A DNA stretch of 64,000 bases, from NCBI GenBank assembly GCA_019359125.1, contig JAHHHY010000012.1:1-64000 (forward strand), given 5' to 3'. The notes under the pieces are model-generated. The model was not told where the DNA came from, did not search any database, and saw only the letters and a list, made by a program, of their open reading frames with translations. A program made the position numbers and the translations under genes. The number at the start of each line of letters is the position of its first letter. Position 1 is the first letter of the stretch. This stretch comes from Pleurocapsa minor GSE-CHR-MK 17-07R. Lineage in GTDB: Bacteria; Chloroflexota; Anaerolineae; Aggregatilineales; Phototrophicaceae. Positions 35,693 to 40,781 of this stretch are shown here, piece after piece.

Positions 35693-36520
35693 ATGCCCTG
35701 CTTCATCAGACGACTGACTTCCTCCGGCCTGCATGCGGTCGATTACAGCGCCGACTCGCTGGCCGATGCCGAGCGCCACGAGCCGCATGGCGTGTATACC
35801 ATCACCAATACGTTCCATGCCACGCGCGTGCTCAAGCTGGATGCGCACCTGGACCGCATGGAAAATTCAGCGCGGCTGTCGGGTATGCCGCTCACGCTGG
35901 ACCGGCCCCGGATGCGCGCCGCCCTGCGCGAGATGATTCTGGCGTCTGGCTATGGCGATGTGCGCTTTCGCATCACCGTGCCGCGTGATGAGCCGGAAAC
36001 CGCCATCCTGTCGCTGGAGCCTTTCAAGCCGCTGTCCCCGGAGACGTACGCCAATGGCGTGCGCGTGATGACCGTGCAGGGGACGCAGCGCGACAACCCC
36101 GGCGCCAAGACGACCGAGTGGGCGCATGACCGCAAGGCCATTGAGGCATCATTTCCGCCGGGTGTGTTCACCGGGCTACTGGTCAGCGCAGACGGCGACA
36201 TCCTGGAAGGGATGAGCAGCAACTTTTACGCCATCAAATCGGGGATGCTGCGCACGGCGGTCGAGGGTGTGCTGCCCGGCATCAGCCAGCAGATCGTGCT
36301 GGAGGTGGCCCCGTCGGTGCTGCCCGTACAGACGACGCCCATCCATCTGGACGACCTGCCCCACATCAGCGAGGCCTTCATCACCAGCGCCAGCCGGGGC
36401 ATCGTGCCGGTCATCGCCATCGACGATATCGTTTTGGGCGAAGGCACGCCGGGCCCGCTGACAGGGCAATTACGCGCCGCCTACAAGGCCTGGATGGACA
36501 CGAATATGCAGGAACTTTAG
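35693..36520 (+). CDS. Class IV PLP aminotransferase (IlvE/ADC-lyase family)
   Basis: 275 residues, fold-type IV. Recognisable parts are HGVYTITNTFHATRVLKLDAHLDRM (N-terminal domain, about 31-55, in pattern), the probable PLP lysine Lys139 in GAKTTEW, ILEGMSSNFYAI (about 182-193) and SEAFITSASRGIVPV. It is shorter and more divergent than the ilvE at 22360 and could be an aminodeoxychorismate lyase or D-amino acid or branched-chain transaminase. ATG 35693 follows GGAGCG. The last 114 bases are repeated at 37788-37901 beyond the inserted HEPN-like gene, so this gene's end may have been rebuilt at integration. Confidence 0.88.
   Translation: MPCFIRRLTSSGLHAVDYSADSLADAERHEPHGVYTITNTFHATRVLKLDAHLDRMENSARLSGMPLTLDRPRMRAALREMILASGYGDVRFRITVPRDEPETAILSLEPFKPLSPETYANGVRVMTVQGTQRDNPGAKTTEWAHDRKAIEASFPPGVFTGLLVSADGDILEGMSSNFYAIKSGMLRTAVEGVLPGISQQIVLEVAPSVLPVQTTPIHLDDLPHISEAFITSASRGIVPVIAIDDIVLGEGTPGPLTGQLRAAYKAWMDTNMQEL
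36407..36520 (+). repeat. Left copy of 114-bp imperfect direct repeat (aminotransferase 3' end)
   Basis: The last 38 codons of the aminotransferase gene, from CCGGTCATCGCC to the TAG stop. They match 37788-37901 at 102 of 114 positions without gaps. Eight of the 12 differences are synonymous, three fall in two amino-acid-changing codons and one changes the stop from TAG to TAA. The pair flanks an AT-rich gene. Confidence 0.95.
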
Positions 36521-36593
36521 GAGACTTACCAGAGAATCAAATTGAGACTACTGCTAACATACTTGGTATAAGTGTACTAACGCTTGTTTGAAA

Positions 36594-36609
36594 GTTCGTG
36601 ATCGCGAAC
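36594..36609. promoter_or_regulatory. Near-palindrome upstream of HEPN-like gene (operator candidate)
   Basis: GTTCGTGATCGCGAAC is a 16-base palindrome with one mismatched pair, centred on GATC and ending 19 bases before the ATG at 36629. A TATAAG box lies upstream at about 36565. It could be an operator for control of the gene. Confidence 0.4.
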
Positions 36610-36628
36610 AACTGATGGAGAATCCCCC

Positions 36629-37783
36629 ATGATTGAAATGTCTGACGATCAAAAACGCGAGTTTTTTGAAGGCTTTCATAAACAGTGGATTGAACCTGAA
36701 ATTAAGAGGCGATTTGAAGAGTCAGGAATTCCAGATTCTTTCAAACTTCGAGAATGCCTAATTACTTTTCCAAAAAATAAGTTGCCACAAATTCATTTCA
36801 ATGATGAATTTGGGTGGCATGTTGAACCAGTAACTTCTTCAGACGAAACAAGACTTCCAGATCTTGTTGTAGGTGAACCTGTGCACCTTCATCAAATTGT
36901 TGGCATCAACAGTGTTTTACCTCCAACCGTTGATGGTGAACGGGTTGCTTTCATCTTCCTGTTCTGGAACGGATTTGATTATAGTCTATTTATTGATTTT
37001 AACCCTAATCAATTGGACTTTGATGCTCTTGACGATAGGTTTGCTTTCAGAGGAGAAATCATTGCTCAACACCTACAAAATGCATTGACAGATAAAGTAG
37101 TCCAATGGGCAAAGAAGCATGAAGTCGCAATTCATCAAATAGGGTTATGGATAGCAACATCTTTGCTTCCATATCCTTTGTCCAAAATTGTGGAGCGAGT
37201 CAGCGCTGGTGACATAGAAGGAGCTCGAAGACCTTTGATTGATTTTTGTACTCCAGATTTCATTTACAACAAGTTGGTCAAGACATGGTCTCCTATCAAT
37301 GCATTTCATATTCGGGAAAAATTATTTGAAGAAGCATTTGAAGCACATAGGCTCGGTCTATTTCATTTGAGTATTTCAGCAATGATAGGTCCTGTTGAAG
37401 GAGTAATTGTCGACTGGCTACACGAAATAATGCCACCAGATAACGTACCATGGAGGACGCCATCTCGTCTCAGACAGCTTGATAGCAATTTACAGCAAAT
37501 CCCACAATTACATTATGCCTTTCGTGAAGCATTGAATGCAACCATTGGTTTTTTACAGAACGACGGAAATTCCGCTGGGCCGTTTCAGCTCTTTAACGAC
37601 TGGCTCATGGATGTTGACCCTAACTTTCCTCCAAGACATATGATTTCTCATGGAAGATACGCATCCGAGATTTATACTGAAGAAAATTCCATCAAGCTTT
37701 TTCTCCTTCTTGATACCCTATGCCAATTCATGATGTTTTATGAAGTAAGGGTGTTGGGCAGGAACCTTGGTCAAAACGGGTAA
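36629..37783 (+). CDS. AT-rich foreign gene, putative HEPN-domain protein
   Basis: 384 residues, about 40% GC against about 61% around it, with codon use unlike all neighbours: clear signs of transfer. The C-terminal part is helical. It includes FHLSISAMIGPVEGVIVDWL (about 240-259), then Arg336-His-Met-Ile-Ser-His341-Gly, an R-X4-H-G motif of the kind found in HEPN ribonucleases, followed by a hydrophobic helix KLFLLLDTLCQFMMFYE. The first 200 residues are unrecognised. HEPN proteins are common in toxin-antitoxin and antiphage systems, so a defence role is plausible but inferred. GGAG precedes ATG 36629. No integrase or partner gene is present. Confidence 0.7.
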   Translation: MIEMSDDQKREFFEGFHKQWIEPEIKRRFEESGIPDSFKLRECLITFPKNKLPQIHFNDEFGWHVEPVTSSDETRLPDLVVGEPVHLHQIVGINSVLPPTVDGERVAFIFLFWNGFDYSLFIDFNPNQLDFDALDDRFAFRGEIIAQHLQNALTDKVVQWAKKHEVAIHQIGLWIATSLLPYPLSKIVERVSAGDIEGARRPLIDFCTPDFIYNKLVKTWSPINAFHIREKLFEEAFEAHRLGLFHLSISAMIGPVEGVIVDWLHEIMPPDNVPWRTPSRLRQLDSNLQQIPQLHYAFREALNATIGFLQNDGNSAGPFQLFNDWLMDVDPNFPPRHMISHGRYASEIYTEENSIKLFLLLDTLCQFMMFYEVRVLGRNLGQNG

Positions 37784-37787
37784 TTTT

Positions 37788-37901
37788 CCGGTCATCGCCA
37801 TCGACGACATAGTTTTGGGCGAAGGCGCGCCCGGCCCGCTGAAGGGGCAGTTACGCGCTGCCTATAAAGCCTGGATGGACACGAATATGCAGGAGCTTTA
37901 A
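37788..37901 (+). pseudogene. Orphan 3' end of the class IV aminotransferase gene (right repeat copy)
   Basis: A 38-codon in-frame remnant encoding PVIAIDDIVLGEG...WMDTNMQEL and a TAA stop, with no start of its own. It is 89% identical to 36407-36520. Its TAA (37899-37901) overlaps the stop of the convergent RraA-like gene, as expected if this is the original chromosomal end of the aminotransferase gene. The body of that gene now ends at the left copy, 1.27 kb away. Confidence 0.9.
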
Positions 37902-38524
37902 GACTTAAAGCCTTTGGACGACAGGATCTGATCGATGCGCGACTTATGGTCCGCTTCCCACTGCGCCAGCGTGATTTCAGCATCACGCACCAAACGCGCC
38001 TGGGATTTCATGAGAACATCGTCCGCCAGAGCAGCAGGCACGACCACCACGCCGTTTTCATCAGCGACGACGATATCACCGGGGGAGACGCGCACGCCAC
38101 CGCATGAGACGGGCTGATTGAGCAGGTCGAGGGCAGACTTGCCGCCGGGAATGGGCACGACGCCGCGAGCAAAGACCGCAAATGCCAGGTCGCGAATTTC
38201 GGGCAAATCGCGGATGACGCCATCGATCACGAAGCCGACGATGCCATGCGCTTGGGCGACAGCACACACGTTGCCGCCCGCCACCGCATAGTCGCAGTCT
38301 GCCGATTCGACCACGATCACCGATCCGCGTGGGGCGCGGTAAATGGCGGCGTGCAGCATCAGATTGTCGCCGGGGCCGCAGCGCACCGTATAGGCCGGGC
38401 CTGCCAGCCGGGGCATGCCCGACCACAGCGGACGAATCTCGTGCGTCATCACCTGGGCGCGATTCGGCATCACATCGCACAGCGTGGTCGTGGGAATCTG
38501 CTGAAAGTCGGTTGCATTACCCAT
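37898..38524 (-). CDS. RraA-like / 4-hydroxy-4-methyl-2-oxoglutarate aldolase family protein
   Basis: 208 residues with the RraA/HMG-aldolase fold. The signature GGNVCAVAQAHGIVGFVIDGVIRD (about 83-106, in pattern) contains the Asp and Arg used by the metal-dependent aldolases. Downstream, VSPGDIVVADENGVVVVP is equally typical. Such proteins are either pyruvate-dependent class II aldolases or RNase E regulators; since RraA's target is restricted to proteobacteria, aldolase-like function is more likely. ATG 38524 overlaps the upstream TfoX-like gene by eight bases (ATGGGTAA); ATG 38545 is an alternative. Confidence 0.85.
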   Translation of the reverse strand: MGNATDFQQIPTTTLCDVMPNRAQVMTHEIRPLWSGMPRLAGPAYTVRCGPGDNLMLHAAIYRAPRGSVIVVESADCDYAVAGGNVCAVAQAHGIVGFVIDGVIRDLPEIRDLAFAVFARGVVPIPGGKSALDLLNQPVSCGGVRVSPGDIVVADENGVVVVPAALADDVLMKSQARLVRDAEITLAQWEADHKSRIDQILSSKGFKS

Positions 38525-38807
38525 GGGTGGGTGACTTTGCCCCATTCAGGCAGCGTTCCGCCTGCTCGCGCAGGGATTGTTTGATTTCATCCGGCAGATG
38601 CAGCCAGTGGATGCGCATCAGCGCCGCCTCCATGCCATACAAGGCATTCAGCGAGACCTGGCGCGGGAATGCACGCTTCAGGCGGCAGTAGGCTTCCACT
38701 GCGCCGACCTGCCCCAGCGTCTCCAGGTCGGGGATACCCACCTGCGCCAGCAGCGCGGCCGTCTTTGGCCCCAGATTCATGCCTGAGGCCGTCGGACTAG
38801 TCGTCAT
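38517..38807 (-). CDS. TfoX C-terminal domain protein
   Basis: 96 residues consisting of a TfoX_C helical domain: MNLGPKTAALLAQVGIPDLETLGQVGAVEAYCRLK in pattern, then VSLNALYGMEAALMRIHWLHLP. In competence regulators this domain is C-terminal to a TfoX_N domain; alone it is a small helix-hairpin-helix-like module of unknown role. ATG 38807 overlaps the methyltransferase stop by 11 bases, indicating coupling; an internal ATG at about 38780 would remove a short non-conserved lead. Confidence 0.85.
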   Translation of the reverse strand: MTTSPTASGMNLGPKTAALLAQVGIPDLETLGQVGAVEAYCRLKRAFPRQVSLNALYGMEAALMRIHWLHLPDEIKQSLREQAERCLNGAKSPTHG

Positions 38808-39702
38808 TGTCGGCCGTGGCTTTGAAGTCATAAATGCCATCGCGCACCGCCCAGCGGTGACCGTCTTTGCGGCACACCATCTCGTTGCCGGCGCGCTCCA
38901 GGTCGCCGCCGCATTCCGGGCAGGCGAAGATTGCGCTCAGTCCCAGATTGTTCACACTGGTGCCGATCGTGCCGGAGCGCGTGAAAATGCTGGGCGCAGC
39001 CAGCCAGCCGGTTTTTTGCAGCAGGCTGTCCAGCTTCACCAGCAGATTGACGCTGACGGATTTTTTCAGCAGGCCTAACCGGAAGAACGACACCGGGATA
39101 CGCTGCTGCACGGTGAATCCGGCAGCCTGCAATTCCTGGCGGATGTATTCCGGGTGAAAGTCAAAATTCAGCTCAACAAATTCGACCGGCTCAAACGCGT
39201 TCGGGTCCCAGGTCTGTTTGCGCAGCGCGTAACGCAGCATGGCCTTCAGATTGCGCTTGTTGGCGTGTTCCAGGATGAACGTGCTGTTGGGCGCCAGCAC
39301 CCGGCGAATCTGCGCCAGCACCGTGCGCACGCTGGCCATGTGATGTATCACGCGCACCATCGTCGCCGCATCAAACACGCCAGGGCGAAACGGCAGCTTG
39401 TACGCGTCAGCGGCCACGTAGATATAGCGCGGGTCGCGGCCCAGCGTCTCCTGCGCATACTGCAACTGCGACAGCGAGTAGTCCAGCACGACGACCTGCT
39501 CAAAATTCTTGTATTCGTTGGTCAGTCGGCCAAAACCAGCGCCAATTTCCAGCAGGCGCTTGCCCTTGGCGGGCAGCAGCTTCTGCAGCGCGATACGCTC
39601 GACGCGGTCCTCGTAATTGCGGCCGCGGTTCTCCCAAAATTCAGTACGATAATTTGAACCCTCGTAGTCGCAGATGCGAGGGCGCGGTTCTGGCTTGGTC
39701 AT
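38797..39702 (-). CDS. SAM-dependent methyltransferase with C-terminal Trm112-like zinc ribbon
   Basis: 301 residues. The Rossmann core has motif I LLEIGAGFGRL (about 52-62), acidic VVLDYS and motif IV in FDAATMVRVIHHM. After a helical middle, residues about 265-297 form a small domain, CPECGG...MVCRKDGHRW..RDGIYDF, closely resembling Trm112/UPF0434 zinc ribbons. Trm112 normally acts in trans as a methyltransferase activator, so this looks like a built-in activator. ATG 39702 starts the conserved part; upstream in-frame codons cover a terminator and are unlikely to be translated. Substrate unknown. Confidence 0.82.
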   Translation of the reverse strand: MTKPEPRPRICDYEGSNYRTEFWENRGRNYEDRVERIALQKLLPAKGKRLLEIGAGFGRLTNEYKNFEQVVVLDYSLSQLQYAQETLGRDPRYIYVAADAYKLPFRPGVFDAATMVRVIHHMASVRTVLAQIRRVLAPNSTFILEHANKRNLKAMLRYALRKQTWDPNAFEPVEFVELNFDFHPEYIRQELQAAGFTVQQRIPVSFFRLGLLKKSVSVNLLVKLDSLLQKTGWLAAPSIFTRSGTIGTSVNNLGLSAIFACPECGGDLERAGNEMVCRKDGHRWAVRDGIYDFKATADNDD

Positions 39703-39744
39703 GCGCTTGTCCAACGTGGATTCTCTTGTGTAATGCCATGACGA

Positions 39745-39771
39745 GAAGAAAACAGGGGACAACTCCCCTGT
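39745..39771 (-). terminator. Terminator of the gene at 39825-40781
   Basis: On the minus strand ACAGGGGA (39771-39764) pairs with TCCCCTGT (39759-39752), loop of four, followed by TTTTCTTCTC. Confidence 0.75.
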
Positions 39772-39824
39772 CTTCAGACCCATATTGTAATGCAGCTTGC
39801 GCCCCGCTGACAACCACCGCCGAA

Positions 39825-40781
39825 TCATCCGCCGCCGTCTGGCAGCACCATCGCGGTGGGCAGCATGTCTGGCGAGGTATTGGCGGCGCTGAACTGGTCC
39901 TGCTGTGCCTGCGCATAACTGCCGTCATAGGTGTAAGCGGGCACACCATAGGCCGACATATTGGCCTGCGCCTGCGCATTCACCTGCGCCGGGCTGCCGT
40001 TTGCCTCGGAATACAACTCCGGCCGAATCTGCTCGTCCAGCGCGGGGATGCCACCCAGCGGCACCATGCCCGTCACCAGCGGCTGATTGGTGATCGGCAC
40101 AGGCTGCGTATTCAGCGTATAACCCACGCCGGCCGTCTCGCTGTAGCCCGGCCACGGGTCGACGCTGTAGGCATTTTCAGCCAGCAGGTCCGGCCCCTGC
40201 CCCGACATCGCGGCGCTGGCCATATCGACGGCGCTGGCAAAGTCATTCGGCAGGTTGTACAGCGCGCGCACAAGCGGCTCAAAGGTCAGTCGCAGGTTGT
40301 TGATCGGGTCATGGAGCTGCGTCTCGCTGATGGGGATCACCGCCCGCACATCCAGCGCGATATCCAGCATCTCGTCCACCGGCACGTTCAGGTCCAGCGC
40401 GACCGGCAGTTCCAGGCCCACCGGCAGCGTCAGGTTGACCGTCGCGCTCAGGTTACCGCCACCGCCCGGCAGCGTGATATCCGCCTGCACAAACAGCGCC
40501 ACATTATCCGTCAGCGTGACGATGGTGTCGGTTTGCAGCGGGATATTCAGGCGCACCGGGATGCTGTCGCGCACCGGAATCGTCCAATCGATCGTGCTCT
40601 CATCCAGGCCGACGAAGCTGCTGTGCAGGCCGGCCACCAGCGGCGTCACCAGGCTGTTCTTGATCTCGAAGATCGTCAGGGCCAGCACGACGACCACCAG
40701 CACCAGGATCAGGTTGACGATGAACGAAAAGATGATGAAGAAGTTCTTCAGCACAGACCCGATGGCCCTGGCAGCTTTCAT
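39825..40781 (-). CDS. Hypothetical single-pass membrane protein
   Basis: 318 residues. One strong membrane helix (about 12-34) is followed by an extracytoplasmic domain. The first part (about 60-180) is beta-rich and regular, with runs such as IPVRLNIPLQTDTIVTLTDN, ITLPGGGGNLSATVNLTLPVGLELPVAL in pattern. The rest is Ala/Gln/Tyr/Pro-rich and probably disordered, ending in Gly-Gly-Gly. I do not recognise a family. ATG 40781 is supported by GGGAGGGG eight bases upstream. Confidence 0.6.
   Translation of the reverse strand: MKAARAIGSVLKNFFIIFSFIVNLILVLVVVVLALTIFEIKNSLVTPLVAGLHSSFVGLDESTIDWTIPVRDSIPVRLNIPLQTDTIVTLTDNVALFVQADITLPGGGGNLSATVNLTLPVGLELPVALDLNVPVDEMLDIALDVRAVIPISETQLHDPINNLRLTFEPLVRALYNLPNDFASAVDMASAAMSGQGPDLLAENAYSVDPWPGYSETAGVGYTLNTQPVPITNQPLVTGMVPLGGIPALDEQIRPELYSEANGSPAQVNAQAQANMSAYGVPAYTYDGSYAQAQQDQFSAANTSPDMLPTAMVLPDGGG

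Follow-up and report, generated by a model that had tools for sequence, protein, structure and literature searches.

An AT-rich gene between two diverged copies of an aminotransferase gene end: a candidate scar of single-gene acquisition

The aminotransferase locus and its two tails

The window, that is, the whole stretch of 64,000 nt that was analysed, carries an intact class IV aminotransferase gene, a single AT-rich gene (the cargo) and a second copy of the aminotransferase gene end, followed by three genes on the other strand.

35693–36520, plus strand: class IV aminotransferase, the target gene, intact (Pfam PF01063, Aminotran_4, E 2.8e-35)
36407–36528, plus strand: repeat copy 1, the functional aminotransferase 3' end (coding to 36520) and about 8 nt beyond it
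36521–36628, plus strand: 108-nt spacer from the aminotransferase stop to the cargo gene, its first few nt belonging to the repeat
36629–37783, plus strand: cargo gene, an AT-rich ORF of 384 aa and of no known family, with a HEPN-like R-x4-H near the C-terminus
37784–37787, no strand: 4-nt junction between the cargo stop and the orphan tail, putatively the non-homologous join
37788–37907, plus strand: repeat copy 2, the orphan aminotransferase 3' end, coding-like to 37901
37898–38545, minus strand: RraA-like gene (PF03737, E 2.4e-45), its stop codon overlapping the orphan tail
38517–38840, minus strand: TfoX_C-domain gene (PF04994, E 2e-19)
38797–39828, minus strand: methyltransferase gene, a syntenic anchor found near the aminotransferase in relatives

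The aminotransferase gene is complete to 36520, and its last 38 codons (36407–36520, stop included) are repeated at 37788–37901, as the original prediction had stated. The ungapped direct repeat (36407–36522 and 37788–37903) is 90% identical, and the gapped version (36407–36528 and 37788–37907; 122 columns, 89.3% identity) continues 6–8 nt beyond the stop codon. It is the sole same-strand repeat at E <= 1e-4 in the window, and across all 23 contigs of the genome (4.85 Mb) the 114-base sequence matches exactly these two sites. Upstream of the orphan tail its reading frame stays open for just 13 codons, up to a stop at 37746 that falls within the cargo gene, in another frame. That one AT-rich gene of 384 residues lies between the copies was likewise confirmed: the cargo, which begins 108 nt past the aminotransferase stop and ends 4 nt short of the second tail, is the sole sizeable gene there, and its GC content (39.7%) is lower than that of the aminotransferase gene (64.3%) and of the window (61.7%). 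No promoter-like site was found in the 108-nt spacer, promoter and terminator scans giving nothing above shuffled sequences. A near-perfect 16-nt palindrome, GTTCGTGATCGCGAAC (window 36594–36609), lies just upstream of the cargo and is a possible operator.

An aminotransferase match is present in all 61 genomes searched (this one and 60 relatives), and only in this genome does a second tail adjoin the gene, the other secondary hits being read as paralogues or pieces at contig ends. The methyltransferase lies within 1.5 kb of the aminotransferase in 16 of 29 relatives' loci (10 of 13 within the genus), and in the ORFs listed for relatives it is convergent and close behind it. No TfoX_C ORF occurs between these two genes in relatives, and RraA has no match in the 29 loci (up to 1.5 kb on each side), the best match to the RraA-like gene within the genus being 39% identical. 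By comparison with the relatives in which the methyltransferase neighbours the aminotransferase, the cargo, the second tail, the RraA-like gene and the TfoX_C gene are all extra here. Aminotransferase identity is about 63% in the nearest genomes, and among them neither a species-level relative with an empty site nor a donor was found; the 29 relatives' loci hold no alternative cargo.

The inserted gene and its relatives

The cargo is without a match in Pfam, PADLOC, NCBIfam and PHROGs, has no relatives in plasmids, phages or viral contigs, and gave no significant hit among PDB sequences (best E 0.67). Relatives along most of its length were seen in two genomes. One of these, an Anaerolineae metagenome-assembled genome (G035; JALHNB010000009.1), is the only one of the 60 relatives with a cargo match, at 54% identity. 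Its AT-rich gene lies between Hen1 and Pnkp, sharing 8 nt with the end of the former and 4 nt with the start of the latter, and no direct repeat flanks it. No donor in which the first tail is followed by the cargo turned up in the genomes searched, and Hen1 has no match in the genome of the window. At nine other loci where Hen1 and Pnkp are both visible the two are tightly joined, with no gene between them, while genome G023 carries two other genes there, one for a 699-aa protein without a Pfam match and one with an HNH domain (L086:3634-6521). The extra genes inside the Hen1-Pnkp RNA-repair operon of G035 (L035:6001-7170) and G023 are possibly nuclease genes.

The second relative (G348, L047:6020-8615) is located in an AT-rich island and is split by a stretch with a 456-aa ORF, presumably transposase-like. 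Wider searches gave cargo matches in 4 of 396 and 5 of 400 genomes; besides G348 these were weak (E 1e-4 to 0.01). Four of the weak matches (L038, L039, L040, L046) looked like chance similarity to unrelated enzymes and were set aside, and L045 was also left out of use, while L049, L050 and L043 were used for the motif alignment and L044 for the N-terminal half.

In the alignment of six sequences, three distant relatives among them, the invariant positions include R336, H337, H341, G342, N353 and D362. R336 and H341 resemble the conserved R-x4-H motif of HEPN ribonucleases (R-x4-6-H in general). The weakly similar N-terminal half of L044 (E about 0.001) comes from a protein that carries a Pfam HEPN domain; the cargo itself has no Pfam HEPN match, and its AlphaFold models are of low confidence (mean pLDDT 36.5 and 39.6). 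The motif is suggestive: a defence ribonuclease of the HEPN type is one possibility for the cargo.

Divergence of the tails and similar brackets elsewhere

The two tails differ at 11 codons, of which nine changes are synonymous (the stop codon included) and two alter the amino acid. Random substitution of the same number of bases gave a mean of 8.1 non-synonymous codons, and two or fewer in none of 2000 simulations. Divergence so dominated by synonymous changes implies that most of it arose while both tails ended working genes, in separate lineages, before they met; it speaks against duplication at insertion, since a tail copied at that moment and functionless thereafter should not diverge in this way. 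These data support the view that the tails are orthologous gene ends from two lineages, one of them a replacement end from another lineage. Copy 2 is probably the displaced native end. In the orphan tail alone, lysine replaces a threonine that all of the 29 aligned relatives have, which fits a displaced end that selection no longer maintains, and the orphan tail overlaps the stop codon of the RraA-like gene, as a native gene end might. The earlier proposal that a foreign gene was inserted and supplied a replacement end agrees with this divergence, with the RraA-like neighbour and with the lost residue.

Similar arrangements were sought in 1.664 Mb (34%) of the same genome as direct repeats of 45–400 nt, at least 75% identical, with copies spaced 400–6500 bp apart in the final scan. 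Pairs were classified by hand, unblinded, from ORFs and six-frame translations, and the controls were small; an automatic gene-end classifier was set aside, as it chose the wrong frame for the window repeat and missed the pair at C5:110807. Of 35 pairs, 21 with no further copy in the sample, six were read as brackets around inserted genes, namely the window pair and five more.

C5:110807/114395, 75 nt: amidohydrolase gene end around a 1131-aa ORF
C1:9923/11649, 92 nt: 610-aa gene end around an opposite-strand gene of 485 aa
C5:243153/244444, 64 nt: SCO1-like gene end around a WD40-like gene
C19:76581/77227, 121 nt: apparently non-coding flank of a gene taken to be GNAT-like, around a 127-aa AT-rich ORF
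C15:44467/47868, 91 nt: upstream flank of a gene taken to be ABC-ATPase-like, around several ORFs

The remaining pairs were paralogous, domain or dispersed repeats, or stayed unclassified (e.g., C3:19215, C6:10205, C5:230590). Three repeats were searched genome-wide (those of the window, C19:76581 and C1:9923), and each has exactly two copies in the whole genome. Directly behind the second tail of the C1 bracket is an AT-rich gene with an FRG domain (L087:11781-12890; Pfam E 9e-15). Elsewhere in the genome, an array of WD40-like secreted-protein genes (G000:C15:35533-52304, the area of L151, L152 and L153) has starts and ends that are about 90% alike and middles that differ.

In 400 kb of a genome of the same genus (G012), two of 12 pairs are close analogues.

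G012, 275 columns: ribonucleotide reductase gene end around a 97-aa ORF
G012, 113 columns: formate-THF ligase gene end around one 417-aa SLFN_AlbA_2 gene of 45% GC

The same genome has two adjacent small genes (G012:C2:54065-54759, L173) with differing bodies and nearly identical last 43–44 codons, which suggests an exchange of ends between paralogues. Among six pairs in 400 kb of a genome of the same family (G362), none is a clear bracket and one is ambiguous: the pair at 355902 and 360115 was considered as a 5'-end bracket and left uncounted, as the start of the intact copy is frameshifted and a 54%-identical gene pair flanks the region. In 250 kb of E. coli K-12 neither of the two pairs is a bracket, both lying inside one annotated gene (aceF, yeeJ).

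Across the brackets of this genome and G012, cargo is unrelated between loci and repeats range from 64 to 275 nt; one insert is on the opposite strand, two brackets consist of gene flanks, and in two brackets other than that of the window the frame of the inserted gene continues into the orphan tail. Among the changed codons of the six coding brackets taken together (four here, two in G012), 29 are synonymous and 11 non-synonymous, where neutral change would give 31.5 non-synonymous on average. The synonymous excess reaches P < 0.03 in five of the six, and is modest for the formate-THF ligase bracket (4 synonymous, 4 non-synonymous, P 0.028); the SCO1-like bracket alone shows no excess (0 synonymous, 1 non-synonymous, P 0.52). 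For the ribonucleotide reductase bracket the count covers the 87 nt up to the first gap, the orphan copy being frameshifted beyond it.

Origin of the arrangement and comparison with known systems

The favoured reading, to which a probability of about 0.5 is given, is that the locus records the horizontal gain of a single gene, as a scar formed by one homologous crossover in the aminotransferase gene and one non-homologous join with DNA from a related organism. A short fragment from a related donor (about 10% divergent here) would have carried the aminotransferase 3' end and then the cargo gene. It may have circularised and then integrated through a single crossover within the short homologous tail; alternatively, one end may have recombined and the other been joined illegitimately, as in homology-facilitated illegitimate recombination. 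Either route would leave the aminotransferase gene whole, with the new gene and the displaced 3' end behind it. For this event we infer the donor, how its DNA entered, by which of the two routes it recombined and which tail is native. Single crossovers in E. coli between the chromosome and circular incoming molecules gave partial duplications of 109–950 bp (PMC3240628), and three competent species are reported to show homology-facilitated illegitimate recombination (PMC3240628; PMC2884548). Natural competence of the host is possible on the evidence of its gene content, a ComEC match being present in the genome but also in 10 of 14 control genomes. Because the inserted frames of two brackets run into the orphan tail, the right boundary looks like a random fragment end.

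A specific element is expected to show constant ends, an enzyme of its own and related cargo. The original prediction had favoured a minimal mobile cassette or a remnant. A self-moving cassette would account for the replacement-end layout and for one AT-rich gene 4 nt from the presumed junction, and so would what is left of an integrative element whose attachment site was the aminotransferase 3' end and whose integrase has been lost. Possible enzymes are also encoded in the genome: Phage_integrase has two matches, one of them below the family cut-off, and resolvase has three, all outside the window, and one integrase is on the same contig (C19:146986-147531). Against this, no recombinase lies between the copies and the window has no integrase or resolvase match (PF00589, PF00239), and the other brackets here and in G012 vary in cargo and repeat length and in part use flanks instead of gene ends. 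The nearest cargo relative, without flanking repeats, also counts against the cargo protein as the moving unit, by the refuting condition that the original prediction itself had set. As cargo is unrelated between loci, repeats differ in length, some brackets use flanks and the copies enclose no recombinase, a self-moving cassette is no longer the leading reading; the locus is probably not one, and cassette and remnant together are held to be improbable. An uncharacterised, dedicated insertion process that makes the duplication of roughly 100 bp itself, as proposed for restriction-modification genes, is unlikely too. It fits the geometry, a long and variable target duplication of the order of 100 bp (PMC3874152), recurring in the genus, but its tails would start identical and the orphan would drift neutrally, whereas the differences observed are mostly synonymous and the cargo is unrelated between loci.

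Ordinary duplication, in which a second aminotransferase copy (a paralogue or an acquired whole gene) was later truncated by insertion of the cargo, would likewise yield tails that diverged under selection, and tandem paralogues do exist in these genomes (e.g., G012:C2:276044). That just the last 38 codons are left, that similar tail-only remnants stand behind unrelated genes and that a second adjacent tail is seen in none of the 60 relatives make this history as improbable as a cassette or remnant. An assembly artefact joining the sequences of two co-occurring strains is very improbable: diverged duplicate gene ends are what mixed strains might produce, and one nearest relative is a metagenome-assembled genome, but the cargo end and the orphan tail have no long common sequence to make an assembler jump, and similar brackets are found in another genome (G012). 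A diversity-generating retroelement has a 90–140-nt copy of a gene 3' end near an accessory gene, a superficially similar geometry in which copy 1 would be the variable repeat and copy 2 the template. This explanation was ruled out, the differences being mostly at third positions, of several kinds and not confined to template adenines, and the only sizeable ORF between the copies having no reverse-transcriptase match.

If the locus is indeed the scar of a one-gene acquisition, its interest lies in the record that it keeps, as for most single genes gained by bacteria nothing in the genome shows how they came in. Where paired tails diverged under selection before being brought together, they would identify homologous DNA of a related species as what the gene came in with, would mark the displaced native end and could be found by automated searches. 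Should the pattern hold genome-wide, the older proposal of insertion with long target duplication becomes testable, with an explanation on offer that needs no mobile element. A broader and more speculative proposal, rather unlikely at present, is that the genus has an active, possibly dedicated gene-capture route by which single accessory genes, some of them defence-like, are repeatedly added behind housekeeping genes, each time importing the gene end of a congeneric donor and leaving the old end as a datable scar; were this so, paired tails would record donor distance and insertion order for each acquisition. The footprint itself is already known, as it matches insertion with long target duplication. 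What is new here is the evidence for an imported tail, a cargo that is not a restriction gene, and the repeated occurrence of such brackets in two genomes of the same genus. No literature on such scars in the Anaerolineae was found, which is weak evidence of absence.

Several known systems resemble the locus in part. The C-terminal half of the cargo has an R-x4-H motif like that of HEPN ribonucleases; the cargo differs in having no Pfam, NCBIfam, PADLOC or PHROGs match. Integrative elements may use a gene 3' end as attachment site, and they likewise leave an intact gene with a replacement end and the displaced end downstream; here, unlike in such elements, no integrase lies between the copies, one gene is carried and repeat length varies by locus. 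Minimal mobile elements of Neisseria are single-gene acquisitions without mobility genes, and one gene would likewise have been gained here, with the differences that alternative cargo is absent from the 29 relatives' loci and that a duplicated gene end remains. For transposed genes of Arabidopsis, moved genes are described between direct repeats that match the target site, together with a circle-and-recombine model (PMC2869330). Target-matching direct repeats stand on both sides here as well, but those genes are eukaryotic and moved within one genome. Homology-facilitated illegitimate or single-crossover integration combines, as proposed here, one homologous and one non-homologous step; that work concerns experiments and models, whereas the present case is a natural scar in a host of putative competence. 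Insertion with long target duplication was reportedly set out by Nobusato, Uchiyama, Ohashi and Kobayashi in 2000. Three further reports describe it (PMC3874152, PMC1643837, PMC3031569), for restriction-modification genes of Helicobacter pylori (PMC3874152, PMC1643837). As in that process, the insert has on either side a long, variable direct repeat of the target, about 100 bp in order of magnitude, and is not tied to a known element. It departs from it in a cargo of no known family that is not a restriction-modification gene (usual there, not strictly required), and in copies that differ mostly at synonymous sites, for which ordinary recombination with DNA of a related organism is argued as the cause.
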